From positions 1,116,001 to 1,180,000 of the forward strand of contig NZ_BCAG01000003.1 of assembly GCF_001293685.1 (NCBI RefSeq): DNA of 64,000 nucleotides. The letters run 5' to 3'. The DNA comes from Desulfatitalea tepidiphila (lineage in GTDB: Bacteria > Desulfobacterota > Desulfobacteria > Desulfobacterales > Desulfosarcinaceae). The number at the start of each line of letters is the position of its first letter. Position 1 is the first letter of the stretch. The position numbers and the translations under genes were made by a program. The notes beneath the pieces were generated by a model. The model did not search any database, had not been told where the DNA came from, and saw nothing but the letters and a program-made list of their open reading frames with translations. This document shows positions 31,219-50,734 of this stretch, piece by piece.

Positions 31219-31247
31219 AAGTGGCGGAAGTGCATGGGAATCGAACC
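31219..31247. repeat. attL of prophage 2 (middle att copy)
   Basis: A 29-base exact direct repeat of 50706-50734, beginning AAGTGGCGG and ending ATCGAACC. The other copy contains the 3' end and CCA of tRNA-Sec. This fits integration of a tyrosine-recombinase element into the 3' end of selC. Confidence 0.92.
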
Positions 31248-31316
31248 GGCCAAAACCCCATTTTTAGGCAAAAAAAAGTATAACAATATCATGGTGATAA
31301 ATATTAATGAAATCAA

Positions 31317-31345
31317 GGTGTAAAATTCTATTTTACACCCTTTTT
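31317..31345 (+). terminator. Terminator just inside attL
   Basis: GGTGTAAAA (31317-31325) and TTTTACACC (31331-31339) form a perfect 9-bp stem with a 5-base loop, followed by CTTTTT. In the integrated state no plus-strand gene precedes it. In the excised circle it would lie about 100 bases after the integrase and att, so it probably ends the integrase transcript. Confidence 0.7.
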
Positions 31346-31390
31346 GTAACACAGATAAACACAGATAAAAGTAGGCATAGATATAAGATT

Positions 31391-31412
31391 TGTTGACCAA
31401 ATGTTGACCAAA
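31391..31412. repeat. Tandem TGTTGACCAAA repeat, integrase arm-type site, left end
   Basis: Two exact 11-bp copies (31391-31401, 31402-31412) match the repeats inside the integrase 3' end (50645-50666). A further GTTGACCA is at 31450. Matching short tandem repeats on both arms of the element are the usual layout of tyrosine-integrase arm sites. Confidence 0.7.
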
Positions 31413-31508
31413 AAGTGCATGGGATAAAATCCTATTAATAGACTGGACAGTTGACCATCGAATACCCAAAGAGCTGATTTAACCCGTACGCACTATAAAC
31501 AAAAGAAG

Positions 31509-31542
31509 GCCGGTCACTTGAATGTGATTGGCTCTTTTTTTT
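31509..31542 (+). terminator. Second terminator near the left end of prophage 2
   Basis: GCCGGTCAC (31509-31517) pairs with GTGATTGGC (31524-31532) using two G-U pairs, followed by TCTTTTTTTT. It is a good intrinsic terminator on the plus strand, isolating the cargo genes from transcripts crossing att. Confidence 0.75.
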
Positions 31543-31642
31543 GATAACAGCTTGACATAATTAAATCAAAAATACTAATCGATAGTCTGTCCATCAACAA
31601 ATTTGGAATTTCGGTTCTCTATCTGAACCCATTGGAGACATC

Positions 31643-32173
31643 ATGGATTGTCCTAATTGCGGTTTAGCGAACTCTGAATCAGCCCTTAGGTGTGATTGTG
31701 GATATGACTTTCAATCTGGCCAGATTGCAGAACCATATTTAAATAATCCAACAGAAAGACTGAATAGTATCGGTGGCTGGTTAATTTTACCAGCCGCTGG
31801 TTTAATTATTGGACCGATTATCACAGTCATTAAATTAATCCCGTTTCTAAAAATCTTGCCGGATGTAATCGGGGAAGACATTGCTGTCCCCTTTGCGTTT
31901 ATTTTAATACTGCTGCTTAGCGGCGTTATATTTATGATTTATACTGCAACTTTATTTTTTCGCAAAAAGAGAAAAACGCCTCGCATCTTTATCAATATGT
32001 TAATTTTCATTCTTTGTATAATTTTTATTGAATTGGCAATTCTATACATTATCGGAGATAAGTGGTCCTTAGCAGATTTTGGTCGAGACATGATTGGATC
32101 AATAATCGGAACTATAATTTGGATACGATATTTTCAGGTATCAAAACGCGTGAAGGCTACATTTATAAATTAA
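31643..32173 (+). CDS. Zinc-ribbon DUF2569-like membrane protein, prophage cargo
   Basis: 176 residues. The N-terminal zinc ribbon is MDCPNCGLANSESALRCDCG (four Cys at 3, 6, 17, 19). Four hydrophobic segments follow, about residues 44-62, 78-100, 114-138 and 148-165, and NSIGGWLILPAAGLIIGPII matches the DUF2569 start. AT-rich compared with the phage structural genes. It lies just inside attL, a usual site for cargo. Function is unknown; an inner-membrane role in host alteration or exclusion is possible. A TTGACA at 31553 may belong to its promoter. Confidence 0.75.
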   Translation: MDCPNCGLANSESALRCDCGYDFQSGQIAEPYLNNPTERLNSIGGWLILPAAGLIIGPIITVIKLIPFLKILPDVIGEDIAVPFAFILILLLSGVIFMIYTATLFFRKKRKTPRIFINMLIFILCIIFIELAILYIIGDKWSLADFGRDMIGSIIGTIIWIRYFQVSKRVKATFIN

Positions 32174-32381
32174 ATATCAGGAATTAAAGATTTTGAATAA
32201 TTTGGTTAAAAATTTTTCGAGGTTTAACTTTATAAAAGTCAATGATGCAAAAGAACAAACATAAGGGTGTAAAACTTTGTACAAAGTAGATTTAAATAGA
32301 TATTAAATAAATATGTTATGGTTTATTTTTGTACAAGAATAGTGCAAGGACTTCTTTTATTGATTTTGGAGCCGGTGGGAT

Positions 32382-33347
32382 ATGGTGATTAAGAAGCAGA
32401 GTAAAAAGCCAAATACCAAAACGAACGAAGGGTCTGAGTTACTAAACGCCATAAAAAACTATCCAATAAAGGTTAAAATATTAAATCGACAGCGCCTCGC
32501 ATTATGGGTATCTATCTTTTCAGTCATTATTGCATTAGGATCTTTTATAGTAGTTATTTACAAGGAATTTCTTCAGACGTATGATATTGCTGCGAATTAC
32601 TCCCAGATCATCATGGCGAAATTGCCGGAGGGTAACAGGCAAAAAATAATAAAAGACCATTTTGTCAATATACTTCTTTTTGGAGATGACTCGGAGAAAC
32701 AAAATGCTAGAAACAATATCAGATTAGAAGATTTGAAGCAGTTTCCTGATTTCTTTAAAGCGATTGAACGGAAGGACAAGGATAGATTAAACGAAATTTT
32801 TGAAAATATGAAGGTACAGAATTATAAACTGCCAGATGAAATTATAAAAAAATATATCGGATCTCAAGCTTTCTCGCCTACGTTTTGTATTCCCTTGGTC
32901 ATTTCGAATAAAGGCAGCAAGTTCGCGCATATTTCTTTAATTTATTTAATTTCCCGCGATGCTAAAAATACAAAAAAAAGATGGCTATTCAAATGTATGA
33001 CCGAAATGAATACGGAAAGTATAGTCCACCGAGAGAATACAACCGATGCTTCCAGGATTAGTGATATTTTCCCTGGAACTTCGGTAGGACCTAAAGAAAG
33101 ATTAAATATTTATCCCTATTTTTTTCCTATATGGGAATACGAGAACCAATCAATAGCCACTAATTCTATGGTGCCTGGTGAATATTTCATTCACCTTGAA
33201 GGATTAGGGCCAGATGGAGAACCAGTTTTCATCACAAAAACAGAAAAACTGGTTATTAAGGAAGAGAGCTTAGTCAAAATGTTTAAGGGGACCGACATGG
33301 CGCAGTATATAGAGCACGATTCATTTATGAAGGAATTTATTAAATAA
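32382..33347 (+). CDS. Membrane-anchored protein of unknown function, prophage cargo
   Basis: 321 residues. A basic N-terminus (MVIKKQSKKPNTKTNEG) leads to one membrane helix, about residues 39-60 (RLALWVSIFSVIIALGSFIV). The remaining 260 residues are soluble, probably periplasmic, with LLFGDDSEKQNARNNIRLED and a beta-rich C-terminal half. AT-rich. A strong terminator follows the stop codon. It does not match a family I recognise. Together with the DUF2569 gene it forms an envelope-directed cargo pair, analogous in location and topology to the prophage 1 moron. Confidence 0.65.
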   Translation: MVIKKQSKKPNTKTNEGSELLNAIKNYPIKVKILNRQRLALWVSIFSVIIALGSFIVVIYKEFLQTYDIAANYSQIIMAKLPEGNRQKIIKDHFVNILLFGDDSEKQNARNNIRLEDLKQFPDFFKAIERKDKDRLNEIFENMKVQNYKLPDEIIKKYIGSQAFSPTFCIPLVISNKGSKFAHISLIYLISRDAKNTKKRWLFKCMTEMNTESIVHRENTTDASRISDIFPGTSVGPKERLNIYPYFFPIWEYENQSIATNSMVPGEYFIHLEGLGPDGEPVFITKTEKLVIKEESLVKMFKGTDMAQYIEHDSFMKEFIK

Positions 33348-33379
33348 TCATTTATGTTCATTGGATATTCGGCGATTAA

Positions 33380-33418
33380 AGGCCGACCACAAATTACATA
33401 ATGTGGGCGGCCTTTTTT
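33380..33418 (+). terminator. Terminator after the 32382-33347 gene
   Basis: AGGCCGACCACA (33380-33391) pairs with TGTGGGCGGCCT (33402-33413) with one mismatch, followed by TTTTTTG. It is close to the cargo gene stop and also faces the small minus-strand gene that ends at 33424. Confidence 0.8.
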
Positions 33419-33423
33419 GTTTC

Positions 33424-33552
33424 TTACCCGATCAGCTTCTTCAACCTCTCATACCTTTCACGATCCGCTTTTGACCTATCCTTGTTTTTGACCACCTCAA
33501 TCGCCAAATTCATCAATTCTGAAATTTCATCGACCCGATTCCCGTCATCCAT
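33424..33552 (-). CDS. 42-residue charged protein of unknown function
   Basis: MDDGNRVDEISELMNLAIEV... is a short, highly charged, entirely helical product ending KKLIG. AAAGGGA lies eight bases before the ATG on the minus strand. It is the only minus-strand gene seen in prophage 2 and sits between cargo and head genes, a good place for a small regulator. Family unknown. Confidence 0.5.
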   Translation of the reverse strand: MDDGNRVDEISELMNLAIEVVKNKDRSKADRERYERLKKLIG

Positions 33553-33890: not shown

Positions 33891-33899
33891 ATGAATTTT

Positions 33900-34178
33900 A
33901 TGGCTTTCAATCATGACGATGGCCTTTTTATAGCAACCGATTTTCGCAGTGCAGCATTAGAAGAGCGTGCCGAGGCCATTCATGGCGCCATTGCCGAATT
34001 GCTTGCTGGCCAACGTGTCACCAGATTGACCATAGCGGGCAAGAGCATTGAATACGGCCAGGCCGACCTGGTAGCACTTCAAAAATTAGAGGCCGACACG
34101 CTCGCTGAACTGCGAAGATATCAGGGCTTGTATCCAAGCTATAAATGCTTGAGGGCTTCGACCAGCAAGGGTTTTTGA
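33900..34178 (+). CDS. gpW-like head-tail joining protein
   Basis: 92 residues from ATG at 33900, which has GAAAG nine bases upstream; ATG at 33891 is the alternative. The gpW-like core is ELLAGQRVTRLTIAGKSIEY with QADLVALQKLEADTLAELRR. It stabilises the packaged head and connects it to the tail. It stands directly before the portal gene, as in prophage 1 and lambda. The C-terminal extension (YQGLYPSYKCLRASTSKGF) is longer than in prophage 1. Confidence 0.75.
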   Translation: MAFNHDDGLFIATDFRSAALEERAEAIHGAIAELLAGQRVTRLTIAGKSIEYGQADLVALQKLEADTLAELRRYQGLYPSYKCLRASTSKGF

Positions 34179-34183
34179 TCAAT

Positions 34184-35662
34184 ATGGCCTACCTGAAAAT
34201 TTTAGACCCACACGGCAACAGGATCAAAGCACAAAGCAGCACCTATGAGGCCGCAGGCTTCACCAGGCGCCTGAACCTGTGGGGCACTTCAACCCTGGGG
34301 CCTGACGCTTCGCTCTATGGCAGCCTGGCGACCCTTCGCGCGCGATCCCGTGAGCTTGTACGCAACGATCCTCTGGCCGGCGCCGGTCTTGACACCCTGG
34401 TGTCAAACCTGGTCGGCAGCGGCATATCGCCACGATGGCAGCTATCCGATGCCACATTGAAGGCACAGCTTCAACAGCTGTGGGCCGACTGGGCCATGCA
34501 GTGCGATCATGACGGCATCGCCGACTTTTACGGCATGCAGGCGCTTGCGGCACGCTCCATGATCGAATCAGGCGAAGTGCTCATTCGCTTCTTACCTCAG
34601 CGGCCGGGGCGCATGGCCGTGCCTCTTAAAATCCAGATAATCGAGGCCGACCACCTGGACGAAACCTACTCGACCACACTGGACAACGGCCGAGAGATCC
34701 GTATGGGCATCGAGTTCGACGCATCCGGCCGGCGTGTTGCTTATCACCTGTTTAAAGACCATCCAGGCGAGGCTTTTATAACGGCCGACACCGTGACCCG
34801 CGTTCGAATCCCGGCAAGCGAGATCCTTCACGTCTACCGGCCTTTACGACCCGGCCAGAAACGCGGCCGGCCGTGGTTATCTGCCGTCATCACCACACTG
34901 CATGAGCTGAATAAATACCTCGATGCGGAGCAGGTGCGTAAGTCTTCGACGGCGATGTTCGGCGGATTCGTGACCGTACCGCCTGAGGGCATCGACAGCG
35001 TTCCTGACATCCTGGGGCAGTCTGGCATAGACGCCACAGGGCAAGAGGTCTTGGCCCTTGAACCGGGCAGCTTTCCCACATTACCGCCGGGCATGGACGT
35101 GAAATTTTCAGAACCCGCCGACGTAGGCGGCAGCTATGAGGCGTTCGTCAAACACATGGAACGGCGCATAGCGCGCGGCTTCGGCGGCCTGACCTATGAA
35201 AAATTGTCCGGCGATCTTTCCGGCGTGAACTACTCTTCGATCCGTGCCGGAAACCTGGAATTTCAACGCTTTTGCCTTCAAATCATCGGCAATGTGCTGG
35301 CCTTTCAACTCTGTCAGCCTGTGGCGCGCTACTGGATCGACCAGGCTGTGCTATCGGGCGCTGTCAAAATCATCGATTTTATCGAGCACCGTCAGCAGTA
35401 TTACCGCATCAAGTGGTGCCCTGACGGCTGGCCCTGGGTAGATCCCGAAAAGGACCTGAAAGCCGAACAGATGGCCATTCGCAGCGGCTTGAAATCCCGT
35501 GCCGAGGCAGTGGCCGAGCGAGGCCGCGACGTCGAAGAGGTTGACATGGAGCAGGCCGAAGACAATTGGCGCACCGATGCCCTGGGCCTTTCCTATGACA
35601 GCGACGGCCGGCGCGCCAAGGATGCCGGCATCCCCACACAGGAACCGAGCAACAATGAATGA
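34184..35662 (+). CDS. Portal protein, lambda gpB family
   Basis: 492 residues. The N-terminal RLNLWGTSTLGPDASLYGSL, DPLAGAGLDTLVSNLVGSGI and the late YEKLSGDLSGVNYSSIRAGN are portal motifs shared with prophage 1. It forms the DNA entry channel. The ATG at 34184 lies five bases after gpW and begins MAYLKILDPHG, a normal portal start; the frame is open to 34145. It overlaps the protease gene by eight bases. Acidic C-terminus (VEEVDMEQAEDNW). Confidence 0.92.
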   Translation: MAYLKILDPHGNRIKAQSSTYEAAGFTRRLNLWGTSTLGPDASLYGSLATLRARSRELVRNDPLAGAGLDTLVSNLVGSGISPRWQLSDATLKAQLQQLWADWAMQCDHDGIADFYGMQALAARSMIESGEVLIRFLPQRPGRMAVPLKIQIIEADHLDETYSTTLDNGREIRMGIEFDASGRRVAYHLFKDHPGEAFITADTVTRVRIPASEILHVYRPLRPGQKRGRPWLSAVITTLHELNKYLDAEQVRKSSTAMFGGFVTVPPEGIDSVPDILGQSGIDATGQEVLALEPGSFPTLPPGMDVKFSEPADVGGSYEAFVKHMERRIARGFGGLTYEKLSGDLSGVNYSSIRAGNLEFQRFCLQIIGNVLAFQLCQPVARYWIDQAVLSGAVKIIDFIEHRQQYYRIKWCPDGWPWVDPEKDLKAEQMAIRSGLKSRAEAVAERGRDVEEVDMEQAEDNWRTDALGLSYDSDGRRAKDAGIPTQEPSNNE

Positions 35663-36743
35663 TTTAATGATCGATCCGATTTTTTTAGCTTCCCCATACC
35701 GCCAGGGCGCAGCATTGGAAAAATCTTTCACCACACATTCCAAAGCCCTGGCGGTCATATCCATCCATGGGCCGCTATCGCACCGGGCGCAGGGGGGCTT
35801 CTTGTCGATGCTGTTCGGCGACACGGCCACATATGACCAGATCCGAGCGGCCTTTCAATCCGCCCTGGCCGACGATGCCGTGGGCGCTATCGTCTTTGAC
35901 ATCGACAGCGCCGGGGGCGAGGTGGCCGGGTGCTTCGATCTGGTGGATGAGATCTACCAGGCGCGCGGCACAAAGCCCATCTACGCGATAGCCAATGAGG
36001 CCGCCTTATCGGCCGCCTACGCGATTGCGAGCGCAGCGGATAGAGTCTACCTGACCCGAACGGCTGCGGTCGGCAGCGTGGGCGTCATGGCGGTTCATGT
36101 GGATCAATCCGGCCTGGATGCAAAGACCGGCCTCAAGTATACCGCGATCCATGCCGGCAGTAAAAAGACCGACGGCAACCCACACGAAGCCTTGAGCAAA
36201 GAGGCCGCCGACGCCATCCAGGCGCGCGTCAATGCCACCTATGATCTGTTTTGCGCCACCGTGGCCCGCAACCGTGGCCTTTCCGAGCAGACCGTCAAGG
36301 TAACAGAGGCGGCCATCTACACAGGCGCCGACGCAGTGGCGGCCGGCCTGGCCGATGCCGTCCAATCATATGAGCAGTTCATTCAAACCATCATCGAGGG
36401 TAACAACATGACTTTAAAAACCGATCTACGGGCACTTATCGCAGGCAAAAAGCCCGAAGAGATTGCCGAGGCCATGGCGGCCTGTGGCTTCATGCCGGCC
36501 GATCATAAGCCGGTCGAAGGCATTCTTGAACTGTGTGACATGATGGGCGTCTCCGACGTCGGCTTCATCAAGGCCGTGGTCAAAGACGGCCTGAACGTCG
36601 AGCAGGTCAAGGCGGCGATCCTTGCGGCCAGGGCCGAAAATTCAAAAACTATCTTTTCTACCGTCTCAGCGACCGGCACAGGTGAAGTCAATCCCCTGCT
36701 TGCCGACGCCAAGCGCCGGGCCGGCATCAATGGAGGTGCATAA
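35655..36743 (+). CDS. S49 family head maturation protease with C-terminal scaffold (gpC/Nu3-like)
   Basis: 362 residues. The protease part has AVISIHGPLSHRAQ, IVFDIDSAGGEVAGC and AIANEAALSAAYAIASAADR, the last containing the probable catalytic Ser (about residue 120), then AAVGSVGVMAVHVD. It matures the prohead. From ATG 36408 a 111-residue scaffold-like tail (MTLKTDLRALIAGKKPEEI) has its own ribosome site. The same arrangement is known in lambda C/Nu3. The start overlaps the portal stop by eight bases. Confidence 0.9.
   Translation: MNDLMIDPIFLASPYRQGAALEKSFTTHSKALAVISIHGPLSHRAQGGFLSMLFGDTATYDQIRAAFQSALADDAVGAIVFDIDSAGGEVAGCFDLVDEIYQARGTKPIYAIANEAALSAAYAIASAADRVYLTRTAAVGSVGVMAVHVDQSGLDAKTGLKYTAIHAGSKKTDGNPHEALSKEAADAIQARVNATYDLFCATVARNRGLSEQTVKVTEAAIYTGADAVAAGLADAVQSYEQFIQTIIEGNNMTLKTDLRALIAGKKPEEIAEAMAACGFMPADHKPVEGILELCDMMGVSDVGFIKAVVKDGLNVEQVKAAILAARAENSKTIFSTVSATGTGEVNPLLADAKRRAGINGGA
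36399..36410 (+). promoter_or_regulatory. Internal ribosome site and start for a Nu3-like scaffold
   Basis: GAGGG (36396-36400) precedes ATG 36408 by seven bases, in frame with the protease gene. The product would be 111 residues, helical and charged, matching a scaffold. Internal start expression is inferred from the lambda C/Nu3 precedent. Confidence 0.6.
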
Positions 36744-36745
36744 TC

Positions 36746-37120
36746 ATGGCCATTACCGAGGGCAACTACAATTCTGATTGGTTGGCTTGGGAACAGGATA
36801 ACGACTACAGCCGGAAAAAGGTCACCATCGCCGAGTCGCAGACCATCACCAAGGGCGAAGTGCTGGGCGTCGTGACCGCTTCCGGTCAATACGCGGCTTT
36901 CAACCAGGACGGCGATGACGGCACCGAGTCGGCCGCCGGCATCTCTTTGGGCGACTACGCCACAGCCGCAAGTGAAACCGCCTCAGGCGTGGCCCTGGTG
37001 CGCGACGCCATCGTCATCGAAGACAATTTGACCTTTCCCAGTGATATTACTTCAGGCGAACAGGCCACTGCCATGGCCAGTCTTCTGGCCCTGGGCATCA
37101 TCACGAAAACGGAGGCTTAA
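36746..37120 (+). CDS. Head decoration protein (gpD-like)
   Basis: 124 residues. MAITEGNYNSDWLAWEQDND, then VTIAESQTITKGEVLGVVTA and LGDYATAASETASGVALVRD match the HDPD/gpD family, which forms trimers on the expanded capsid to stabilise it. It lies between the protease and the gpE-like capsid gene as in lambda. GGAGGTG precedes the ATG. Length is normal. Confidence 0.88.
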   Translation: MAITEGNYNSDWLAWEQDNDYSRKKVTIAESQTITKGEVLGVVTASGQYAAFNQDGDDGTESAAGISLGDYATAASETASGVALVRDAIVIEDNLTFPSDITSGEQATAMASLLALGIITKTEA

Positions 37121-37123: not shown

Positions 37124-38134
37124 ATGCTGAACCCATTTGAAACCAACGACGCCTTTTCCATGGTGTCTTTGACCAAGGCTATCAACCTGCTTCCGAACAA
37201 CTACGGCCGCTTGAAGCAGATGAACCTCATGCCGGGCAAGGGCGTTCGGACCCGCTCCATTGTGGTCGAAGAGCGTGCCGGGGTGCTGACCCTGCTTCCC
37301 ACACAGCCTGTGGGCGCGCCTGGCCTGCAAAACGCCATGGGCAAGCGAACCGTTCGAACCTTTGTCATCCCGCATATCCCGCTCGATGACACCATCTTGC
37401 CCGATGAGTACCAGGGCATCCGGGCCTTTGGCCAGGAAGACGGCACGGCCGCCTTGGCGCAAGTGGTCAATGATCACCTGCAAACCATGCGCAACAAGCA
37501 CGCCATCACCTTGGAGCACCTTCGCATGGGCGCCTTGAAGGGCATCATCTACGATGCCGACGGCTCAACCGTGCTTTACAATCTTTATACCGAGTTCGGC
37601 ATTACGGCCAAAACCATTGACTTTGTGCTTGATAACTCTGCCACCAATGTGGGCGGCAAGTGCCGGGAGTCCGTGCGTCACATCGAGGACAACCTCAAGG
37701 GCGACGTGATGAGTGGCGTGCACTGCCTGTGTGACGAAAATTTCTTCGATGCGCTTGTCAGCCATGACAACGTGAAAGAAGCCTATATGTATCACTCAGA
37801 GGCTTCCCAACGCCTGGGCGAAGACAATCGAAAGGGTTTTCGCTTCAACGGCATCACCTTTGAAGAGTATCGCGCAAGCGCCACAGGCAGCGCCGGCAGC
37901 ACCGTAGCATTTATTCCGGCCAATACGGGCTACATTTTTCCCGTGGGCGGGCAGAGCACCTTCGAAACGTTATTTGCCCCTGCCGACTTCACCGAGACGG
38001 CCAATACCCTTGGCCTTGAGCTGTACGCCAAACAGGAACCGCGCAAGTTCAACCGTGGCGTTGACCTTCACACGCAGAGCAACCCCTTGCCGATCTGCTA
38101 CCGGCCGGGTGTGATTGTGACAGCGACCATCTAA
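37124..38134 (+). CDS. Major capsid protein (gpE-like)
   Basis: 336 residues. MLNPFETNDAFSMVSLTKAI, RTRSIVVEERAGVLTLLP and TVRTFVIPHIPLDDTILPDE are hallmark parts of the lambda E-type capsid family. The C-terminal YAKQEPRKFNRGVDLHTQSN and YRPGVIVTATI are also typical. It makes the HK97-fold shell. It is unrelated at sequence level to the prophage 1 protease/capsid fusion, so the two elements carry different heads on related portals. The stop overlaps the next start by one base (TAATGA). Confidence 0.93.
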   Translation: MLNPFETNDAFSMVSLTKAINLLPNNYGRLKQMNLMPGKGVRTRSIVVEERAGVLTLLPTQPVGAPGLQNAMGKRTVRTFVIPHIPLDDTILPDEYQGIRAFGQEDGTAALAQVVNDHLQTMRNKHAITLEHLRMGALKGIIYDADGSTVLYNLYTEFGITAKTIDFVLDNSATNVGGKCRESVRHIEDNLKGDVMSGVHCLCDENFFDALVSHDNVKEAYMYHSEASQRLGEDNRKGFRFNGITFEEYRASATGSAGSTVAFIPANTGYIFPVGGQSTFETLFAPADFTETANTLGLELYAKQEPRKFNRGVDLHTQSNPLPICYRPGVIVTATI

Positions 38135-38448
38135 TGAACCTTGACGATGCCAAATCGGCCGCCCTGGCGGTCTGGTTCGATACCGGTATCGCCGAATCGA
38201 TCACTTACAACGGTTCGGCAATACCGGGGCATATCTCTTATAGTGAACCGGGCAAGGCGGCCTATGCCAACCATGCCGTGCTTACCGTGAGGCGCAGCGA
38301 CGTGCCGGCGCCGGCCTACCGCGACACGGTAGTCATCGACGGGGCGACGTGGCGAGTCTACCAGGATGACGGCCAGGCGCCGATCTGTGGCGGCGATGAA
38401 CTGACGTGGGATATCCCCATCATGCGAGGGGAAAGGCGCGCCATATGA
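38134..38448 (+). CDS. Head-tail connector-like protein (gpFII position)
   Basis: 104 residues, MNLDDAKSAALAVWFDTGIA..., beta-rich C-terminal half (DTVVIDGATWRVYQDDGQAP). Position between capsid and tail terminator matches lambda gpFII, which completes heads for tail joining. The sequence match to that family is by pattern only. It overlaps the next gene by four bases (ATGA). Confidence 0.7.
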   Translation: MNLDDAKSAALAVWFDTGIAESITYNGSAIPGHISYSEPGKAAYANHAVLTVRRSDVPAPAYRDTVVIDGATWRVYQDDGQAPICGGDELTWDIPIMRGERRAI

Positions 38449-38912
38449 ATATCAACACACTACTTGGCAACCTGGCGACAGCCATCAGCACCAACGCGGC
38501 ACTTACCACATGGTGCAACACGACCTATGGCCATGCGCACAAGGTCTTTGTCAACCTGGATCACCGCAACCCGCCAGGTGACAGCGATTGCCCCTTTGTG
38601 ACGCTCTATCCGATCAGCAAGAGCGCCGGCCTGGGGGTGAGCACCAAGCGCCACGCCTTCGAAGTGGATTGCTGCATTTATGACGACACCACACGCACCA
38701 CCGGCCAGGTGCTCGAATACAATTCGATCCGGCGTGTCGAAGAGTTCAGGAAATTGATTGAATCGGCCATCATGGGCATCGATACGGGCAACGCTCTGAT
38801 TGAGACGGTCGAAATTGAGTACAGCGTGGTCGAGGCTTTCCCCTTTGCCTGGGCCGGCATGGTCATCGAAATAAACGAGCACTTCATTTTGGGGTCAGAT
38901 CCCCTTGAATAA
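38445..38912 (+). CDS. Tail terminator / minor tail protein (gpU-like)
   Basis: 155 residues, MNINTLLGNLATAISTNAAL..., with CPFVTLYPISKSAGLGV and the C-terminal GMVIEINEHFILGSDPLE. It holds the same slot as the 158-residue prophage 1 gene. Proteins of this type cap the tail and bind the head connector. GAGGGGAAAGG lies before the ATG, and the frame upstream of 38445 overlaps the preceding gene and is rejected. Confidence 0.65.
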   Translation: MNINTLLGNLATAISTNAALTTWCNTTYGHAHKVFVNLDHRNPPGDSDCPFVTLYPISKSAGLGVSTKRHAFEVDCCIYDDTTRTTGQVLEYNSIRRVEEFRKLIESAIMGIDTGNALIETVEIEYSVVEAFPFAWAGMVIEINEHFILGSDPLE

Positions 38913-40567: not shown

Positions 40568-41030
40568 AGCCTTCAGGCTATCTAAAGAGCTAAAGGCAGA
40601 GATCCGGGCCGGCGACCGCTTCGCACCTCTAACCTTCCTGGCACGTCGCCGAAATAAATCCACACGACCAAATAGGCCACTTCAACGCCTGGCGATCCCG
40701 ATCCGCTATCACATGGTCGATGATATGACCGTGGCCATCGGTTGGACCGGACCGAAGGTGTCGGCATCTTGGAAGCGCATCGCGCAGCGGCAGCAAGAGG
40801 GCTTCACATCGCAGGTGACCGAACGGCGCCGGCGCTTTTTTCGGCACAAGGCCGACAATTTGAGCGAGCGTTCGGCAAATCGAAAGTTTCTCTTTTTGCG
40901 CGACACCACACGTGCCTTGAAGACACCGGCGCGGCCGATCATCGATCCCTTTTATGAGCGCCACCACATCCAGGCATGGCGCAATATCCAGGCAAACTTC
41001 CGGCGAAAATTGGCGGGTGAAAGAATATGA
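40470..41030 (+). CDS. Minor tail protein (gpZ-like), shared with prophage 1
   Basis: 186 residues, MEVTLKGAPELQRALKSHQA... Conserved with the prophage 1 protein in LKVEAFRLSKELKAEIRAG, VSASWKRIAQRQQEGFTS and ALKTPARPIIDPFY. It is rich in Arg and Lys. Position before the tape measure suggests a tail completion role. The first 98 bases overlap the extended chaperone frame, and its stop overlaps the tape measure start by four bases (ATGA). Confidence 0.75.
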   Translation: MEVTLKGAPELQRALKSHQANAIKALQTALKVEAFRLSKELKAEIRAGDRFAPLTFLARRRNKSTRPNRPLQRLAIPIRYHMVDDMTVAIGWTGPKVSASWKRIAQRQQEGFTSQVTERRRRFFRHKADNLSERSANRKFLFLRDTTRALKTPARPIIDPFYERHHIQAWRNIQANFRRKLAGERI

Positions 41031-42994
41031 CCGATCACAAACTTGAAATCATCCTATCTGCAAAAAATATGGCCACCGGGGCCTTTGACAGTATCGGGGC
41101 GCAGGTCACCAACTTGACCAGGACCTTTTCAGGATTGCAGGGCGCCATGGCAGCGGCGGCCGGCGTGGCGGGCTTCGGGCTTCTGGTCAAGGGCGCCATC
41201 GACTCGACGGCCGAGATCAAGCGCAACGCAGAGATGGCCGGCGTGAGTGCCGAAGCCTACCAGGAATTGACCTATGCGGCGAAGCAATACCAGGTGACGG
41301 CCGACGCCTTGACCGATGGCTTGAAAGAATTGAACTTGCGTGCCGATGAGTTCGCAGTGACCGGCGCCGGCAGTGCTGCCGAAGCCTTTCAACGCCTGGG
41401 CTACACACAAGAAGAGGTCAACGCCAAGCTATCCGATACACCAGGATTGCTTCTTGAGATCACCGACCGCATCCAGGGCCTTGGCCGGGCCGCTCAGATA
41501 CGCATCGCCGATGAATTATTCGGCGGGCAGGGCGGCGAGCAGTTCGTGGCGATGCTTCGGGCCGGTTCGGGCGAAATCGAGCGACTACGCGACCGCGCGC
41601 GATCACTGGGATTAGTTTTAGACAGCCACCTGGTGGACCAGGCGGCCGAGGCCAAGGCAAAACTTGACACACTCGTGGATGTGCTTGGCGTGCAATTCAA
41701 AGGCGTGCTTGTGACCTTGGCGCCATCGATCACGAATGTGGCCGACCGCTTCACCACCTGGATCGAAGAAAATCAGAACTTGATCGATCAGAATTTGCCC
41801 CAGTACATCGAAAGCCTTGGCAGTGCCCTTGAAGGTGCAGCCGGCGTGGCGGCACGCCTGGCGGGCTATATTGCCAAGATTGCCTCTGTGGGGGCGCAGT
41901 TCGAAGAGTTTCACGGCATCATGGAGCGGGCCGGCGAGTATGCAAGGCGGGGCCTGTTTGACTTTTCACAGCTGGCCGGCCTGGATACCGACGCGGCACT
42001 TGCAAAGACCCGTGAGATTGTCGAAATGCTCGACCGCACCGTTCGCATCACGGAAAACGGCGAGATCCGCTATAAGATAGGCGTGCACACCGAGGGCTTC
42101 GAAAAGTTCAAGGCCGACTATGAGCAGTGGATTGCTTCACTTCATACGACAGACAAGACAAAGCCTGTGGCGCCTCTGCCCTTGGTGCCGGCATTGCCCA
42201 CACCACCACCGGTCAACGTGAGTTCAAATACTGCCGATTGGGTATCTATCAATACGCCAGGCGATGAGGCCGACCAGGGCTACAGCGAGATTGAAGAGCT
42301 ACTGAGCAAGCGCAACGAGCTTTTCCAGACTAAAAACGATGAGCTTACCGGCATGACAGAGCGTACCGCCTGGGCGATGCAGGAAAATTTTTCGAATCTA
42401 TTCTATGACGCGATGACCGGCAAGCTTGATTCGTTCGAAGACTATGCCAGTTCAATATTCGACTCAATCGTTCGGGCTTGGTCGGATATGATTGGCCAGA
42501 TGGCAGCCAAGGCCATCGCCAACAATATCATCGGCGGCATGTTTTCCACAAATAGTACAAGCGTATCACTTGGCACAAACAGCCAAACAGGTGCCCTGGC
42601 GAATTGGGGCGCCAAGGGCCTGGTCTATGATCGGCACGGCATCAAGTGGCATGCTTCGGGCGATATACTTTCAAGCCCGACAGTATTCCCACTCACAAAC
42701 GGCCAGTGGATTGGCGCCGGTGAGGCCGGAACCGAGGCCATCATGCCCTTGCGTCGTGGCGCGGACGGCCGCCTGGGTGTGGAAGCAAATGGTAGTAAAA
42801 ACAACACAGTAGTAAATGTGTATAACTCTTCGGGGGTGGAAGCACGGACAGAAGAGCGAGACGGGCCCGGAGGCCTGGAAATAGATGTGATCATCGATAG
42901 GGCCTTCGCGCAAAAAATCGCACAGAGGGGCAGCGTCACCGAAAAAACGCTTAGAATGCAGACCAACTATCGCAAGCCCTTGACATTACGATAA
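41027..42994 (+). CDS. Tail tape measure protein
   Basis: 655 residues. The N-terminal MTDHKLEIILSAKNMATGAF matches the prophage 1 protein (ADAKLEILLAAKNMADAAF). An Ala/Gly-rich hydrophobic stretch (MAAAAGVAGFGLLVKGAID, residues 41-59) and long helices follow. The C-terminal GAGEAGTEAIMPLRRGADG is a typical tape-measure ending motif. The length is close to that of prophage 1, so predicted tail lengths are similar. The frame is intact. It is the last morphogenetic gene of the element. Confidence 0.88.
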   Translation: MTDHKLEIILSAKNMATGAFDSIGAQVTNLTRTFSGLQGAMAAAAGVAGFGLLVKGAIDSTAEIKRNAEMAGVSAEAYQELTYAAKQYQVTADALTDGLKELNLRADEFAVTGAGSAAEAFQRLGYTQEEVNAKLSDTPGLLLEITDRIQGLGRAAQIRIADELFGGQGGEQFVAMLRAGSGEIERLRDRARSLGLVLDSHLVDQAAEAKAKLDTLVDVLGVQFKGVLVTLAPSITNVADRFTTWIEENQNLIDQNLPQYIESLGSALEGAAGVAARLAGYIAKIASVGAQFEEFHGIMERAGEYARRGLFDFSQLAGLDTDAALAKTREIVEMLDRTVRITENGEIRYKIGVHTEGFEKFKADYEQWIASLHTTDKTKPVAPLPLVPALPTPPPVNVSSNTADWVSINTPGDEADQGYSEIEELLSKRNELFQTKNDELTGMTERTAWAMQENFSNLFYDAMTGKLDSFEDYASSIFDSIVRAWSDMIGQMAAKAIANNIIGGMFSTNSTSVSLGTNSQTGALANWGAKGLVYDRHGIKWHASGDILSSPTVFPLTNGQWIGAGEAGTEAIMPLRRGADGRLGVEANGSKNNTVVNVYNSSGVEARTEERDGPGGLEIDVIIDRAFAQKIAQRGSVTEKTLRMQTNYRKPLTLR

Positions 42995-43020: not shown

Positions 43021-43041
43021 GTGTAAAATCCCGCTTTACAC
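43021..43041 (+). terminator. Hairpin after the tape measure gene
   Basis: GTGTAAA (43021-43027) and TTTACAC (43035-43041) form a 7-bp stem with loop ATCCCGC. No long T-run follows, so termination strength is doubtful. It marks the end of the structural operon. Confidence 0.4.
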
Positions 43042-43179: not shown

Positions 43180-43602
43180 ATGAACCGAACATTTACCAAC
43201 CGCGATCTTGCCTTCATTACCGGTAAAAGCATAGGCACCATTAGGGCCTTGCCATCGACCACACTGTGCTTGCCCAGTTATCCGCCAAGAGAGCCCGACT
43301 TCATTACTCGCTGGTCATTCGATGACCTGGTGGGGGTTTATCTCTTTTTCACAATTGTTCAAGGCGGCATTTCACGCGAATACGCAGGCGAGGCCATTAA
43401 CGGCACGGATGTCATCAAAGCGTTTCAAATAGATAGCCCCCCTGATTTTGTAATATTTATTGAAAAAGATGGCGGCGAGTGGGCGCCAAGGGTAACTGCC
43501 GAAGGCATGGCCCTGCTTTCCAAATTTCAATATGCTCAAGCCAGGGTGTTCAATTTAAAGTACTACAAACAGGCATTCGAAGAGCGTATCGCCAAACTAT
43601 AA
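43180..43602 (+). CDS. MerR-like winged-helix regulator candidate
   Basis: 140 residues, MNRTFTNRDLAFITGKSIGT..., where FTNRDLAFITGKSIGTIRAL could be a winged HTH recognition unit. WSFDDLVGVYLFFTIVQGGI and a C-terminal helix KYYKQAFEERIAK follow. Starts 185 bases after the tape measure, in an AT-rich stretch, and leads the replication genes. It may control the early operon. Family assignment is tentative. Confidence 0.5.
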   Translation: MNRTFTNRDLAFITGKSIGTIRALPSTTLCLPSYPPREPDFITRWSFDDLVGVYLFFTIVQGGISREYAGEAINGTDVIKAFQIDSPPDFVIFIEKDGGEWAPRVTAEGMALLSKFQYAQARVFNLKYYKQAFEERIAKL

Positions 43603-43616
43603 TTAGAGGTGCAACA

Positions 43617-43868
43617 ATGAATATCCGACCAGAAAACCCTATAGATCACGCTTTAGCCGAAGCATTACTGATTTTTATCCAGTCAACCGGTCCGACTGAA
43701 TATCATCGATTAGCAGAAGTTCTATGTTGCAAATCATCGACAGCTAAAAGGATGACGGTCGATGAGTTGAAAAGGGCACTCAATATCCTTGCGGCAAATG
43801 GCTTGATAAATCTCAAGCCACTAAGCAACGCGGGTATATTGATCGACGTTCAGCGGGGGGTGGCTTGA
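43617..43868 (+). CDS. Small winged-helix protein of unknown function
   Basis: 83 residues. LAEVLCCKSSTAKRMTVDELKRALNILAANGLINLKPL has the layout of a winged HTH. AGAGGTGC precedes the ATG at 43617; the longer open frame overlaps the preceding gene. Its stop overlaps the TTG start of the replication gene by three bases, so the two are probably translated together and this protein may help replication initiation. Confidence 0.5.
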   Translation: MNIRPENPIDHALAEALLIFIQSTGPTEYHRLAEVLCCKSSTAKRMTVDELKRALNILAANGLINLKPLSNAGILIDVQRGVA

Positions 43869-46276: not shown

Positions 46277-46438
46277 TTTGTTACGCGTTACGCTTTTTTC
46301 GGAGTTTAGTCCTAGGAAAAAACATATGTAAAGGTAGTTTCAAAATATGCGTAACCGTTAACAAATTGAGATAACATATTGAAAATTATAAAAATAAATG
46401 CGTAACACAATTAAAAAAATGCGTAACAATGCGTTAAC
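46191..46438. repeat. Nine ATGCGT(T)AAC iterons, candidate prophage 2 origin
   Basis: Copies at 46191, 46210, 46222, 46347, 46398, 46419 and 46429 read ATGCGTAAC or ATGCGTTAAC; two inverted GTTACGC copies stand back to back at 46280 and 46287. The intervening DNA is very AT-rich. It starts in the last codons of the replication gene and ends before the packaging genes. This is the pattern of an iteron origin for the PrimPol/D5 protein. Confidence 0.78.
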
Positions 46439-46757: not shown

Positions 46758-46779
46758 AGATATCAGGAAGATAGCTAAT

Positions 46780-47253
46780 ATGAACGCAGCAAATTACGCA
46801 AAGCACCGCCAGGTGACCCCATCGCAGGTTACAGCATGGATCAAAAAGGGCCTGCTTGGCAACGCCTGCCAAAAAGTGGGCGCGCGCTACGTCATAGACC
46901 CTGTGGCAGCCGACGCGGCCTTAGAGGGCGGCCTGCATCCGTCATACGATCCAGGCGATACCGGTCCATCCTTCGCCGAGGCCAGGCGCCAAAAAGAGCA
47001 CCACCTGGCAGAGCTTCGACGGCTGGAACTGGAAGAAAAAAAGGGCATGCTCGTGCCGGCCGCAGAGGTGCAGGGCCTGCTTGAAAAACTCATCATGCAG
47101 GCGCGCACCAGACTGCTTGGCATCAAGGCGCAGGTGGCCCCACTGGTGCATGAGGCCATCGCCGACGCGGCACAGCGTGAGCGCCTGCTTTTCACTGTGG
47201 AAGAGATCATCGAGGGAACTCTGAAAGATTTGAGCGATGCAAAAATTCAGTAG
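46780..47253 (+). CDS. Terminase small subunit (Nu1-like)
   Basis: 157 residues. The N-terminal wHTH MNAANYAKHRQVTPSQVTAW with IDPVAADAALEGGLHPS is followed by a helix AEARRQKEHHLAELRRLELE and LVPAAEVQGLLEKLI, as in Nu1-type small subunits. It recognises the packaging site. GGAAGATAG precedes the ATG. Its stop lies inside the large subunit gene (17-base overlap). Confidence 0.82.
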   Translation: MNAANYAKHRQVTPSQVTAWIKKGLLGNACQKVGARYVIDPVAADAALEGGLHPSYDPGDTGPSFAEARRQKEHHLAELRRLELEEKKGMLVPAAEVQGLLEKLIMQARTRLLGIKAQVAPLVHEAIADAAQRERLLFTVEEIIEGTLKDLSDAKIQ

Positions 47254-49111
47254 TGCGGCCATCGATATATGGAACCAAGCCATCACCGCATGGCGGCCAC
47301 CGCCTAAAATGACGCTCAGCCAGTGGGCCGACACGTACGCGTATCTATCCCCGGAATCGAGCGCAGAGGCCGGAAAATGGCGCTCCTTGCCTTACCAGGC
47401 GGGCATTATGGATGCCATCACCGACCCCTGTGTGGAGCGCATCACCATCATGAAATCCGCTCGTGTGGGATACACAAAAATAATCAACCACACCATCGGC
47501 TATCACGTGCACCAGGACCCGGCACCGATCCTTGTGGTGCAACCGACCATCGAGGATGCCGAGGGGTATTCCAAAGACGAAATCGCTCCAATGTTGCGCG
47601 ATACGCCATGCCTGGCCGGCCTGGTGGCCGATGCCAGAACGCGCTACTCAAACAACACCATCCTGAAAAAATCTTTTCCAGGTGGCACGCTCATCATGGT
47701 GGGCGCCAACAGCCCGCGTGGTTTCCGGCGCATATCGGCACGCGTCGTGCTCTTCGATGAGACAGACGGTTACCCGCCAGGTGGCGCCGGCGCAGAGGGC
47801 GATCAGATCATGCTTGGCATCCGGCGCACTGAATATTTTTGGAATCGAAAAATCGTGCTTGGATCGACGCCAACCATCAGCGGTCTAAGTCGCATCGAGG
47901 ACAGCTTCAACCAAAGCGATCAGCGGCGCTACTTTGTACCATGCCCGCACTGTGGCCACATGCAGGTGCTTAAGTGGCAACGCCTGACCTGGCCGAAGGG
48001 GCAACCCGAACAGGCGGCCTACCAGTGCGAGTCATGCGAAAAACTCATTGCACACAGTCACAAGCGATGGATGATTGAACGCGGAGAATGGCGGGCGACA
48101 AAGCCCTTCAACGGCCATGCCGGTTTCCACATTTGGGCCGCGTACAGCTACAGCCCAAATGCCACCTGGGCCAAACTGGCCGAAGAGCGCGAATCCATCG
48201 GCAAAAATCGCGACAAGTTAAAGACCTTCATCAATACCGTGCTGGGTGAGTGCTGGGAGGATCGAGGCAGCCAACCCGCCTGGGAAAACCTACACACACG
48301 CTGCGAACCATATCCGTTCATGGAAGTGCCGGCCGGCGCCTACCTGCTTACCTGTGGCACCGATGTGCAACACGACCGCCTTGCCGTGGTCATTCGGGCC
48401 TGGGGCCGTGGCGAGGCGTCATACCTGGTGTTCTGGGGCGAGCTATACGGCGACACCTCACAGCCCGAAGTGTGGGGGCAGCTGGATCAATTATTAAATC
48501 GAAATTACCGACACGCATCGGGCGCCGATCTGCAAATAGTCAGTGCTGCTATCGACAGCGGCGACGGCAACCGAACGCAGGTGGTCTATAACTTTGTCCG
48601 AACGCGCGGGCCGCGATGTTTTGCGGTCAAGGGCCAGTCGCAACCGGGCAAGCCGATCATCGGCCGGCCGCATGCTGTGGACGTGAGTTATCGAGGCACC
48701 ACCATCAAGGCCGGCGTGCAAGTCTGGCCTGTGGGCAGCGACACAGGCAAATCAACGATTTACTCCCGCCTGCAGCAGACCAATGGGCAAGGCGTCTACC
48801 ATTGGCCGATCGGCCTGGATGCCGACTACTTTCAACAGCTGACAGCCGAAAAACAGATCACAAAATATCACAAGGGCTATCCGGTCCTTGAGTGGCAAAA
48901 AATCCGCAGCAAAAACGAGGCGCTCGACTGTGAGGTATACGCCTACGCGGCAGCGATCCGGGCGGGGCTTCAAAGGATCAATTTTGAGCAATTAGAGCAA
49001 CAGACCAGGGCCACAAAAACCACCACCACCAACACGGCACCATCGCGCCAGGCGCAGAGCACCAGATCTGCCCGGCCGGCAGTTTCTAGATCAAATTGGA
49101 TGCAGAGGTAA
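47237..49111 (+). CDS. Terminase large subunit (GpA family)
   Basis: 624 residues in one intact frame. WRSLPYQAGIMDAITDP, the atypical Walker A IMKSARVGYTK, VVLFDETDGYPPGG (Walker B), zinc pair CPHCGH with CESCEK, and FINTVLGECWEDRG, LLTCGTDVQHDRLAV (start of the nuclease) all match GpA. It translocates and cuts DNA. The C-terminus is low-complexity Thr/Ser/Ala. Contrast with the prophage 1 copy, which is frameshifted. In the circular form it would be joined to int, att, cargo and gpW. Confidence 0.93.
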   Translation: MQKFSSAAIDIWNQAITAWRPPPKMTLSQWADTYAYLSPESSAEAGKWRSLPYQAGIMDAITDPCVERITIMKSARVGYTKIINHTIGYHVHQDPAPILVVQPTIEDAEGYSKDEIAPMLRDTPCLAGLVADARTRYSNNTILKKSFPGGTLIMVGANSPRGFRRISARVVLFDETDGYPPGGAGAEGDQIMLGIRRTEYFWNRKIVLGSTPTISGLSRIEDSFNQSDQRRYFVPCPHCGHMQVLKWQRLTWPKGQPEQAAYQCESCEKLIAHSHKRWMIERGEWRATKPFNGHAGFHIWAAYSYSPNATWAKLAEERESIGKNRDKLKTFINTVLGECWEDRGSQPAWENLHTRCEPYPFMEVPAGAYLLTCGTDVQHDRLAVVIRAWGRGEASYLVFWGELYGDTSQPEVWGQLDQLLNRNYRHASGADLQIVSAAIDSGDGNRTQVVYNFVRTRGPRCFAVKGQSQPGKPIIGRPHAVDVSYRGTTIKAGVQVWPVGSDTGKSTIYSRLQQTNGQGVYHWPIGLDADYFQQLTAEKQITKYHKGYPVLEWQKIRSKNEALDCEVYAYAAAIRAGLQRINFEQLEQQTRATKTTTTNTAPSRQAQSTRSARPAVSRSNWMQR

Positions 49112-49115
49112 AATA

Positions 49116-49316
49116 ATGAAAGAAAGGCAGCAATATATACAGGTTTCGAAAGCTGCAAAAATGCTTGATTGCAGCGCCGAGTATGTCCACAAACTGATTG
49201 CAGACCGGCACCTGACAGCCATCAATGTTGGGGCTCGTATGACGCGCGTCAGTGTTGAGTCTCTAATGAATTTTATCAGGCGGTCAAGGGTCGATCCGGA
49301 TAGCTATGCTCAGTGA
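49116..49316 (+). CDS. HTH excisionase-family protein
   Basis: 66 residues, MKERQQYIQVSKAAKMLDCS then AEYVHKLIADRHLTAINVGA, the MerR-like excisionase domain pattern. Starts four bases after the terminase stop and stands immediately upstream of the integrase, as excisionases do. It may bend DNA at att for excision. The prophage 1 HTH at 22484 has the equivalent position relative to terminase. Confidence 0.75.
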   Translation: MKERQQYIQVSKAAKMLDCSAEYVHKLIADRHLTAINVGARMTRVSVESLMNFIRRSRVDPDSYAQ

Positions 49317-49460
49317 TCAAAGATGCCAGGTATTGCCATAAACAATCAAATCGGGATACAAAGTGACACCCACAGGATAGGGTCGCTCCCGAAAAGCCGG
49401 AAACCCTTTGCCGGCCTGCCTGTGGGCATATTCAAAGGGGCAGCCAAAAAGGGGGCTAAG

Positions 49461-50678
49461 ATGGCAATTTTACAAGAATGTCCGGCCTGCAAGCGCAAAC
49501 AATCCGTGAAAAAAAAGCGATGTGTTTCTTGTGGCCTGGAATTGGATGAGTTAAAAAAATCCCGACTGGTCAAATACTGGATTGATTTTAGATATCGCGA
49601 TCCAAAGACCGGCAAGACCGTACAACGACGTGAGAGCGTCGAGGCCATGGAGGGGCTTCAAGGAAATTCCATTGCCGATGCACGCACAGCCCTTGCAAAG
49701 CGGTCGGTTCAGAAAGCAGAAAACCGGGTGCTCGATATCCTGCCTGAACACAAACTCACATTTTCAGAACTGGCCGATTGGTACTTGGCGTTAGAGTCTG
49801 TAAAAACACTAAAATCATACAAAACGGTAAAGGGATACATTAACAAATTCAAAGAGGCTTACGGGCAACGAATTGTGGCCGATATTTTACCGGCTGACCT
49901 TGAGGATTTGCAAGCCAAGCGCCTGGGGCAAAATTTAAAATTAAAAACCATTGACGATGAAATAAATTACGTCAAAACGATGGTCATCAAGGGCTTCGAT
50001 AACGGCAAGGTCGGGGGTGATGCCCTTCGCTCTTTCCGGCGCGTCAAAAAATTGTTAAAGGGTCATGCCAATGCTCGAGACAGATATTTGACCATCGATG
50101 AATTTGCCCGGCTTCTTGAGGCCAGTCCGAACCATCTTAAAAATATTTTGACGATCGGGTATTGGTCCGGTATGCGCAAAGGTGAAATTACGGCGTTGAC
50201 CTGGGATAAAATCGATATGAAGGGCCGCATGATCCGGCTTGAGGCCGAAGACACCAAAGAGGGGAAGGCCAAGTCGATCCCGATGGCAGAGGCCGTCTAT
50301 CGGGTTATCCAGTCAATTCCAAGGTCTATTCACGATCCCCATGTGTTTCTCTATTACAGCAAGCCGATCACCAGGAATTTTAGCCAGGGGCTTAAATCTG
50401 CCTGCAAAAATGCGGGCATTGCCTGGGGGCGTGACGTGAAAGGCGGCTTTATTTTCCATGATCTACGGCACACCTTCGTCACTGATATGAGGCGAGCAGG
50501 TGTTGACCGTACCGTTCGAATGGCGATCACCGGTCACGCCATCCACGATATGGATCAGCGGTATGATGTGGTCGAAGAGTCGGATAAACTGGAAGCGATC
50601 AGGCGGCTTGAAAAGTATCGTTCGAAGGTGGCCTGTTTAACGAATGTTGACCAAACGTTGACTAAATCGGGTTTTTAA
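49461..50678 (+). CDS. int: Tyrosine site-specific integrase
   Basis: 405 residues from the ATG at 49461 with AAGGGGG upstream. A zinc ribbon occurs at the N-terminus (Cys7, Cys10, Cys21, Cys24). The SAM-like core-binding domain is around residues 100-180. Catalytic residues are Arg239 (GMRKGE), His333-x-x-Arg336 (HDLRH), His359 (ITGHA) and Tyr368 (QRYDVV). It integrates into the 3' end of selC. The last 12 codons contain an 11-bp tandem repeat that probably doubles as its arm site. It reads towards attR 28 bases away. All expected residues are present. Confidence 0.93.
   Translation: MAILQECPACKRKQSVKKKRCVSCGLELDELKKSRLVKYWIDFRYRDPKTGKTVQRRESVEAMEGLQGNSIADARTALAKRSVQKAENRVLDILPEHKLTFSELADWYLALESVKTLKSYKTVKGYINKFKEAYGQRIVADILPADLEDLQAKRLGQNLKLKTIDDEINYVKTMVIKGFDNGKVGGDALRSFRRVKKLLKGHANARDRYLTIDEFARLLEASPNHLKNILTIGYWSGMRKGEITALTWDKIDMKGRMIRLEAEDTKEGKAKSIPMAEAVYRVIQSIPRSIHDPHVFLYYSKPITRNFSQGLKSACKNAGIAWGRDVKGGFIFHDLRHTFVTDMRRAGVDRTVRMAITGHAIHDMDQRYDVVEESDKLEAIRRLEKYRSKVACLTNVDQTLTKSGF
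50645..50666. repeat. Tandem TGTTGACCAAA / CGTTGACTAAA, integrase arm site at the right end
   Basis: Two 11-bp copies with two differences, inside the integrase 3' end. They match the pair at 31391-31412 at the other end of the element. Likely recognised by the integrase amino-terminal domain. Confidence 0.7.
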
Positions 50679-50705
50679 TTTTTAACTTATTGATTTTAAA
50701 GGAAA

Positions 50706-50734
50706 AAGTGGCGGAAGTGCATGGGAATCGAACC
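50706..50734. repeat. attR of prophage 2 at the 3' end of selC
   Basis: Exact 29-base match to 31219-31247. It covers the tRNA 3' acceptor strand with CCA and most of the T-arm, so the tRNA stays whole after integration. Confidence 0.92.

Follow-up and report, generated by a model that had tools for sequence, protein, structure and literature searches.

A selC-integrated element of Desulfatitalea tepidiphila with head, tail tube and packaging genes and no recognisable tail tip or lysis module: a candidate phage satellite

The stretch of Desulfatitalea tepidiphila DNA analysed here (the window; 64,000 nucleotides, contig NZ_BCAG01000003.1, positions 1,116,001 to 1,180,000) carries a 19.5 kb element in selC, at window positions 31219-50734, flanked by exact 27-bp att repeats. 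Head, tail tube and packaging genes are present in this element, and a tail tip and a lysis module are absent from it; a preliminary description of the DNA had proposed this combination, and a scan against PHROGs and Pfam confirmed it. Judging from its gene content and relatives, we give an even chance to the reading that the element is an integrative phage satellite, which would build the head and the greater part of the tail itself, borrowing tip and lysis functions.

Boundaries and gene content

The att core, GTGGCGGAAGTGCATGGGAATCGAACC, occurs in exact copies at 31221 and 50708 (start-to-start distance, 19,487 bp), with none expected by chance. The right copy overlaps the 3' end of the tRNA-SeC gene (50709-50806, reverse strand). 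As an att-bounded integrative element with its own integrase and replication genes, it is in this respect like phage satellites in the broad sense. A third att copy, with one mismatch, lies about 46 kb to the left of the element at C3:1100970 and is adjoined by another integrase gene (L110:4068-5300, phrog_1). From this copy and this integrase it follows that the neighbouring prophage 1 is a separate tandem insertion of about 46 kb.

A single prophage of 65.7 kb, made of the element and prophage 1, was considered and ruled out, as three att copies and two integrases amount to two insertions. It is likewise very improbable that the element and prophage 1 are the two halves of one unit behaving as a prophage of about 65.7 kb. 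Such a unit would account for a public viral record, 65,611 bases long, that contains the element together with prophage 1 or at least its adjoining end. It would also give the element something to complement, for prophage 1 has tip and tail proteins (phrog_687, phrog_1082, phrog_778 and phrog_1101) and a large terminase frame that is interrupted in this assembly. However, each of the two insertions delimited by the att copies has one integrase, and prophage 1 and the element each have head and terminase genes of their own, which differ.

Twenty ORFs of the element were scanned against PHROGs and Pfam (E ≤ 0.001) and ten against NCBIfam, the latter being the one scan that covered the AlpA-like ORF. 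Families were identified for the portal, S49 protease, decoration protein D, major capsid protein (MCP; Phage_cap_E), FII-type joining protein, tape measure protein (TMP), primase, both terminase subunits (TerS and TerL) and integrase, and the tail tube was recognised by PF18906 (Table 1). The terminase is of the gpA family, which we take to be a cos-cutting type. As previously described, the TMP gene is followed by two small regulator genes, the primase gene and the terminase genes, after which come the AlpA-like and integrase genes. The 140-aa regulator gave no family match in PHROGs, Pfam or NCBIfam and the 83-aa winged-helix-like protein none in NCBIfam; the latter probably starts at the ATG at 43617, within an ORF of 43479-43868.

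Two membrane proteins at the left end are putative cargo. PADLOC returned neither a match nor a defence call for their genes, and the 321-aa protein has no family in PHROGs, Pfam, PADLOC or NCBIfam and no relative in plasmids. The GC content of this stretch is 35.5%, versus 56.8% for the head and tail genes.

Table 1. Features of the element (window coordinates)
Feature	Position	Strand	Basis
Left attachment site, copy of selC 3' end	31219..31247		Exact 27-bp repeat with 50708-50734
Palindrome GTGTAAA-N7-TTTACAC, candidate operator, left-end copy	31318..31338		Only two genome copies
DUF2569 membrane protein, probable cargo	31643..32173	+	PF10754, E 2e-22
321-aa protein, one N-terminal membrane helix (by eye), putative cargo	32382..33347	+	No family match
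Head-tail adaptor Ad1-like	33891..34178	+	phrog_75, E 2e-6
Portal protein	34145..35662	+	PF05136, E 2e-110
S49-type head maturation protease (ORF limits)	35499..36743	+	phrog_53, PF01343
Head decoration protein D	36746..37120	+	PF02924, E 4e-31
Major capsid protein, lambda gpE type	37124..38134	+	PF03864, E 8e-113; sister to G013 in tree, 99/93
FII-type head-tail joining protein	38134..38448	+	PF05354; NF049848 26.6 bits, cut-off 25
168-aa neck/tail protein	38406..38912	+	phrog_17431; syntenic with G013
Tail tube protein, 315 aa	38928..39875	+	PF18906, E 2e-45
Putative tail assembly chaperone, 89 aa	39897..40166	+	Tube-TMP position, as in many relatives; function from position
Tail completion/neck protein, 186 aa	40470..41030	+	phrog_222, E 9e-5; homologues in many syntenic loci
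Tape measure protein (TMP), 655 aa, mosaic	41027..42994	+	phrog_10574; segment comparisons
Palindrome GTGTAAA-N7-TTTACAC, candidate operator, TMP/early-gene junction	43021..43041		Only two genome copies
140-aa HTH-like regulator (HTH: preliminary description, by eye)	43180..43602	+	No family match
83-aa winged-helix-like protein (by eye)	43617..43868	+	No family match
D5-type primase/helicase, 803 aa	43865..46276	+	phrog_6088, PF08706
Terminase small subunit (TerS)	46780..47253	+	phrog_57, E 9e-21
Terminase large subunit (TerL), gpA type	47237..49111	+	PF05876, PF20454; sister to G013, 100/99
AlpA-like excisionase	49116..49316	+	TIGR01764, 28.0 bits, just under 28.8 cut-off
Tyrosine integrase	49323..50678	+	PF00589; 69% to G004 selC integrase
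Right attachment site in tRNA-SeC	50706..50734		Exact 27-bp repeat

The absent tip and the relatives of the element

Tip, fibre, holin and endolysin families found no match among the 20 ORFs (PHROGs and Pfam, E ≤ 0.001), and the gap of 185 bp between the TMP gene and the first regulator leaves no room for a tip gene. The head is complete by sequence, and connectors, tail tube and TMP are encoded as well. The distal tail, hub and lysis genes that would mark an autonomous siphophage are not recognised downstream of the TMP, nor is a peptidase or fibre gene recognised; in terms of recognisable families, the element resembles a satellite in lacking functions needed for an infectious particle.

Tip profiles were built from six queries. 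Two were named by PHROGs (phrog_1082 and phrog_687); Pfam named another two (DUF2460 and, slightly short of its cut-off, the gp84-N hub domain); the remaining two, ORFs of L160, presumably encode a BR0599-like and an NlpC-like protein. The profiles were scanned over 300 loci and the window, and the tip tally, the profiles and the trees described below refer to these first 300 loci. Where a tube gene and a TMP gene were paired and at least 3 kb lay beyond the latter, a tip gene was detected within 4 kb in 30 of 41 cases, a tally in which L044 and L055 represent the same contig, as do L029 and L155. Five of the eleven pairs without a tip gene (rows W, L002, L018, L019 and L221) are one and the same element, namely the present one, counted once from the window and four times from overlapping portions of a single public record. 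When the other six were inspected by eye, L175, L184, L207 and L208 proved to have ORFs sized like the usual tip genes, L042 had three tip candidates after the TMP (ORFs of 119, 160 and 1595 aa), and L143 was not readable. By this profile-based count, the absence of a tip is exceptional among the relatives.

These data bear on the suggestion that the element is a small autonomous phage with tip and lysis genes diverged beyond recognition, the left-end membrane proteins serving, for example, in lysis. The two proteins do have no assigned role, which leaves the suggestion some footing. We nevertheless consider it improbable: tip genes in relatives are mostly several and adjoin the TMP, where the element has no room for them; the low GC content around the membrane protein genes is of a kind often seen with cargo; and neither protein (31643-33347) has a homologue in the loci of G013, the closest relative.

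Searches with the tube protein found matches in two of 30 genomes of the family, the element's own and G013, and in 11 of a class sample of 389 genomes, its own included. Searches with the MCP found matches in 13 of 389 genomes of the order and, at E ≤ 1e-60, in three of 395 genomes of the phylum, again counting its own. G013, from the same bacterial family, is the closest (MCP 72%, TerL 69% and tube 56% identical); once the element's own record is set aside, viral contigs reach at most 70%, 58% and 48%, respectively. Both trees pair the element with G013 (supports in Table 1). After removal of copies and short rows, 34 of the 84 MCP profile hits and 34 of the 138 TerL hits went into them, and the tree program warns of long branches, that of the G013 TerL among them. 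The element's remaining genes had been described as intact, and this holds: their own frames are open, and none of the 12 genes compared with G013 (protease and Ad1 were left out) has a stop in the G013 frame.

The G013 element spans 20,645 bp between exact 32-base tRNA-Met repeats (C1:5948634 and 5969279). Its gene order is integrase, RepB-type primase, TerS, TerL, AlpA, Ad1, portal to TMP, tip, a 243-aa protein with sub-threshold sigma-70 matches only, and tRNA. The single tip gene lies directly after the TMP gene and encodes a 401-aa protein of phrog_1082. Common to the two elements are the att-bounded position at a tRNA gene, the order TerS-TerL-AlpA and the order Ad1-portal-to-TMP. The G013 element differs in having another integrase, a RepB-type primase, tRNA-Met as its site, one tip protein and the weakly sigma-like gene, and it has no integrase between AlpA and Ad1. 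A close relative with a full tip and lysis module after the TMP, named beforehand as a case that would speak against a satellite, was looked for and not found; the other such case, lone carriage with free particle formation, was not encountered either. G013 was the candidate for the full tip module and was dismissed, having yielded phrog_1082 and no match to the phrog_778 hub anywhere in its genome. It was the phrog_778 protein type that the preliminary description labelled BR0599.

The preliminary description had proposed searching other genomes for selC elements of like content and of about 20 kb. The G013 element is of nearly this size, is inserted in tRNA-Met and retains one tip gene. Reduced size among the relatives is represented by this one sister element of 20.6 kb, and only two members are known. 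The exact state without a tip is seen in one lineage only, G013 keeping its tip gene.

Integrase and primase led to other places. The integrase has matches at E ≤ 1e-40 in 32 of 359 class genomes, its own included, the best after its own genome being that of the congener G004 (69% identical), which also sits beside tRNA-SeC. The G004 island, of 9,736 bases between 31-base att repeats, holds DnaB, one MCP-protease gene (59% identical to that of the resident prophage 3 and 45% to annotated phage MCPs), genes that look regulator-like by eye and the integrase. It shares with the element the selC attachment site, the integrase type and a phage capsid gene, and differs from it in its 9.7 kb length and single MCP-protease gene; with local profiles, neither portal nor terminase nor tail genes were recognised in it. 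Three viral contigs of 8-10 kb, which may be incomplete, also have related integrases: L329, at tRNA-Leu, with one MCP gene (37% identical to an annotated phage MCP and without a useful match among solved structures), and L330 and L331, with a terminase. A fourth, L334 (integrase 30% identical), has a primase, a partial MCP and a TMP-profile match in a scan of 18 loci. No virion query matched, within the stretches examined, at six places with integrases at 38-46% identity in genomes G134, G223, G121, G226 and G280, from which we conclude that the integrase clade is not specific to satellites; the idea of using the integrase as a general satellite marker was dropped on the same ground. The best primase relatives outside the element's own genome are at two places in G199, one with an integrase, a DNA methylase and an excisionase-like gene, the other with an integrase, a methylase and a phrog_7043 tail-protein match. 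They tell little about the virion, since no head gene was recognised at either place.

The tape measure, its downstream junction and possible helpers

When up to one mismatch is allowed, the palindrome GTGTAAA-N7-TTTACAC is found at just two positions of the 5.6 Mb genome, both within the element; one copy starts 27 bp after the TMP gene. A reversed-pattern control found no match in the genome, and the palindrome is absent from G013 and G004. To judge by this motif, the TMP/early-gene junction resembles an organised site rather than a raw scar. The position of the junction copy argues against a fresh deletion and is still compatible with an old one.

The main rival to the satellite reading is decay. 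The element could descend from a complete small siphophage and have lost the tip and lysis genes recently, so that the remaining frames are still open. G013 has kept a tip gene where the element has none, and tip genes follow the TMP in those relatives of the same MCP family whose sequence extends beyond it (L029/L155, L044/L055, L048 and L153). The ratio pN/pS between the element and G013, 0.27-0.54 for eleven genes and 0.66 for the TMP, speaks for the satellite reading; with dS at about 1.3 or more and often saturated, it spans the whole time since the two split and is still compatible with a recent loss. Against decay, the 185-bp gap holds no space for a tip gene and contains an element-specific palindrome that recurs near the left end; the G013 sister, moreover, is itself reduced and of nearly equal size. 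We regard decay as rather unlikely, though a serious contender, and favour the satellite reading over it because of the reduced sister of similar size, the mosaic TMP and the organised junction.

The mosaic character of the TMP emerges from segment comparisons. Residues 261-390 and 529-608 are 57% and 54% identical, respectively, to prophage 3 and have no usable match in G013 or prophage 1. Residues 391-520 are about equally close to all three (prophage 3 41%, G013 45%, prophage 1 40%), the N-terminal 130 residues are 37% identical to G013, 32% to prophage 1 and 30% to prophage 3, and for the last 47 residues there is no match to any of the three. The C-terminal part thus appears to have been exchanged with a phage of the prophage 3 type, the very end being untraced. 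In phage 80alpha the tip protein Tal encloses the C-terminal 20 residues of the TMP, and Dit, Tal and TMP form, in the model that the authors support, the nucleus for assembly (PMC7048315). By analogy, the last 47 residues would be those in contact with the tip; as they match none of the three, and residues 391-520 are about equally close to all of them, the exchange points only weakly to a particular helper. That they match neither prophage 3 nor G013 also lowers the odds for a class of tip-borrowing satellites.

The preliminary description had suggested a helper such as prophage 1, whose tube protein, it stated correctly, is homologous to that of the element (38% identical) and like it 315 aa long. 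Prophage 3 may be a likelier choice than prophage 1, whose TerL frame is interrupted. In prophage 3 the TerL frame is open, and the TMP is followed by DUF2460 and a sub-threshold gp84-N hub domain. The tubes of prophage 3 and the element, however, are only 33% identical. A phage of the prophage 3 type may be the likeliest helper at present, its identity being a guess. Viral contig L151 has Ad1, portal, protease, D, MCP and FII proteins of the element's type (41-61% identity) and a tail of the prophage 1 type (tube 96% and tip protein 86% identical to prophage 1); a head of the element's type has therefore already been joined in nature to a prophage-1-type tail. No second tube of the element's family was found in the G013 genome at E ≤ 1e-10, and the tube search revealed no helper with the element's tube type in G013 or G004.

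The proposal of a satellite, as first put forward, is thus favoured by a sister element of similar size with a reduced tip, by the nearest integrase belonging to an MCP-carrying island at the same site in a congener, and by the palindrome at the junction; it is weakened by the fact that what is missing differs in G013 and that neither G013 nor G004 offers a helper with this tube type. In this reading, the element would excise after induction and replicate with its own primase, and its DNA would fill its own heads of about 20 kb capacity. Its tail tube would assemble on a tip complex made by the helper, into which the C-terminal part of the mosaic TMP would dock. The helper, in this scheme a phage of the prophage 3 type, would provide lysis as well. 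A broader idea, toward which we lean somewhat less than against it, is that such satellites form a class of their own, found in two genera or more, which makes head, neck, tube and ruler itself and borrows only the tip initiator plus lysis. Its members would adapt through exchange of the TMP C terminus and would gain the helper's host range while controlling their own particle.

Comparison with known satellites

PICI-type satellites have an integrase, an AlpA-like gene and a primase, and so does the element. A full-text literature search, followed at the level of titles and abstract openings, brought up no satellite with a tube and tape measure and without a tip, which is weak evidence. The cf-PICIs carry their own terminase, portal, protease, capsid and connectors and take the tail from the helper (PMC10690885). 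The element is like them in encoding its own capsid, protease, portal, connectors and both terminase subunits. Unlike them, it carries a tail tube (PF18906), a putative tail chaperone and a tape measure (phrog_10574), and it thus falls outside a definition of cf-PICIs as having no tail genes of their own. The HNH endonuclease of the cf-PICI packaging module found no match at E ≤ 0.001 among the 20 ORFs. At 19.5 kb, the element is also larger than the cf-PICI average of 14 kb (PMC10803314). The Streptomyces satellite viruses MulchRoom and MiniFlayer can be likened to the element in having their own capsid and packaging genes; they rely on a helper, as the element would. They are described without a primase, whereas the element has one, and the MulchRoom tail is thought to be made by the helper as a whole (PMC10690885).

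If the satellite reading is correct, a tail initiator could be supplied in trans across divergent tubes, and the element would offer a natural system for the study of TMP-tip recognition and of changes in satellite host range. Capsid-forming satellites, as known to date, rely on the helper for the tail; one that makes its own tube and ruler and borrows only the tip would be a new intermediate between satellite and phage.

Candidate sites inside the element

Several TGCGTAACA-like repeats lie between the primase and the terminase small subunit (TerS) genes of the element and are candidate origin iterons, only their clustering being suggestive; across the whole window, the number of such repeats with one mismatch is not above chance. 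Exact copies of TGTTGACCAAA near both element ends are possible integrase arm sites.

Features of the element, its relatives and the resident prophages (bare positions refer to the window)
Feature	Position	Details
TGCGTAACA-like repeats	46216-46430	three copies exact
TGTTGACCAAA, exact copies	31391-31412; 50645-50655	two, left; one, right
Prophage 1 large terminase	22732-24694 (-)	overlapping frames 23366-24694 and 22732-23550
Third prophage (L017, L050)	G000:C3:1409500-1429500	fused MCP-protease, tube, TMP, DUF2460, hub-like genes
selC island of congener (L316)	G004:C2:38346-48112	9.7 kb
Viral contig L329	L329:1-8122	
Second integrase, G013 locus (L036)	L036:9341-10528 (-)	phage-type

MCP, major capsid protein; TMP, tape measure protein.

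Islands with a coat protein and a neighbouring integrase

In the selC island found in a congener, DnaB is accompanied by one full-length MCP-protease gene, the only virion gene recognised there. The island is a candidate satellite that would supply its own coat protein only. A second possible island of this kind is the viral contig L329, itself perhaps incomplete, with one MCP gene, a related integrase adjoining tRNA-Leu and an ORF judged primase-like by eye. At the G013 locus, which holds the element's closest relative, the second integrase lies immediately beyond the right att repeat and perhaps marks an adjacent insertion that used the same tRNA.

Possible helper type and head/tail exchange

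The large terminase of prophage 1 is split over two frames; its reading frame is thus interrupted in this assembly, possibly through a sequencing error. The third prophage of the genome is the likeliest helper type. In another viral contig (L151), a prophage 1-type tail (tube 96%) is joined at the neck to an element-type head, a head/tail exchange that has occurred in nature.
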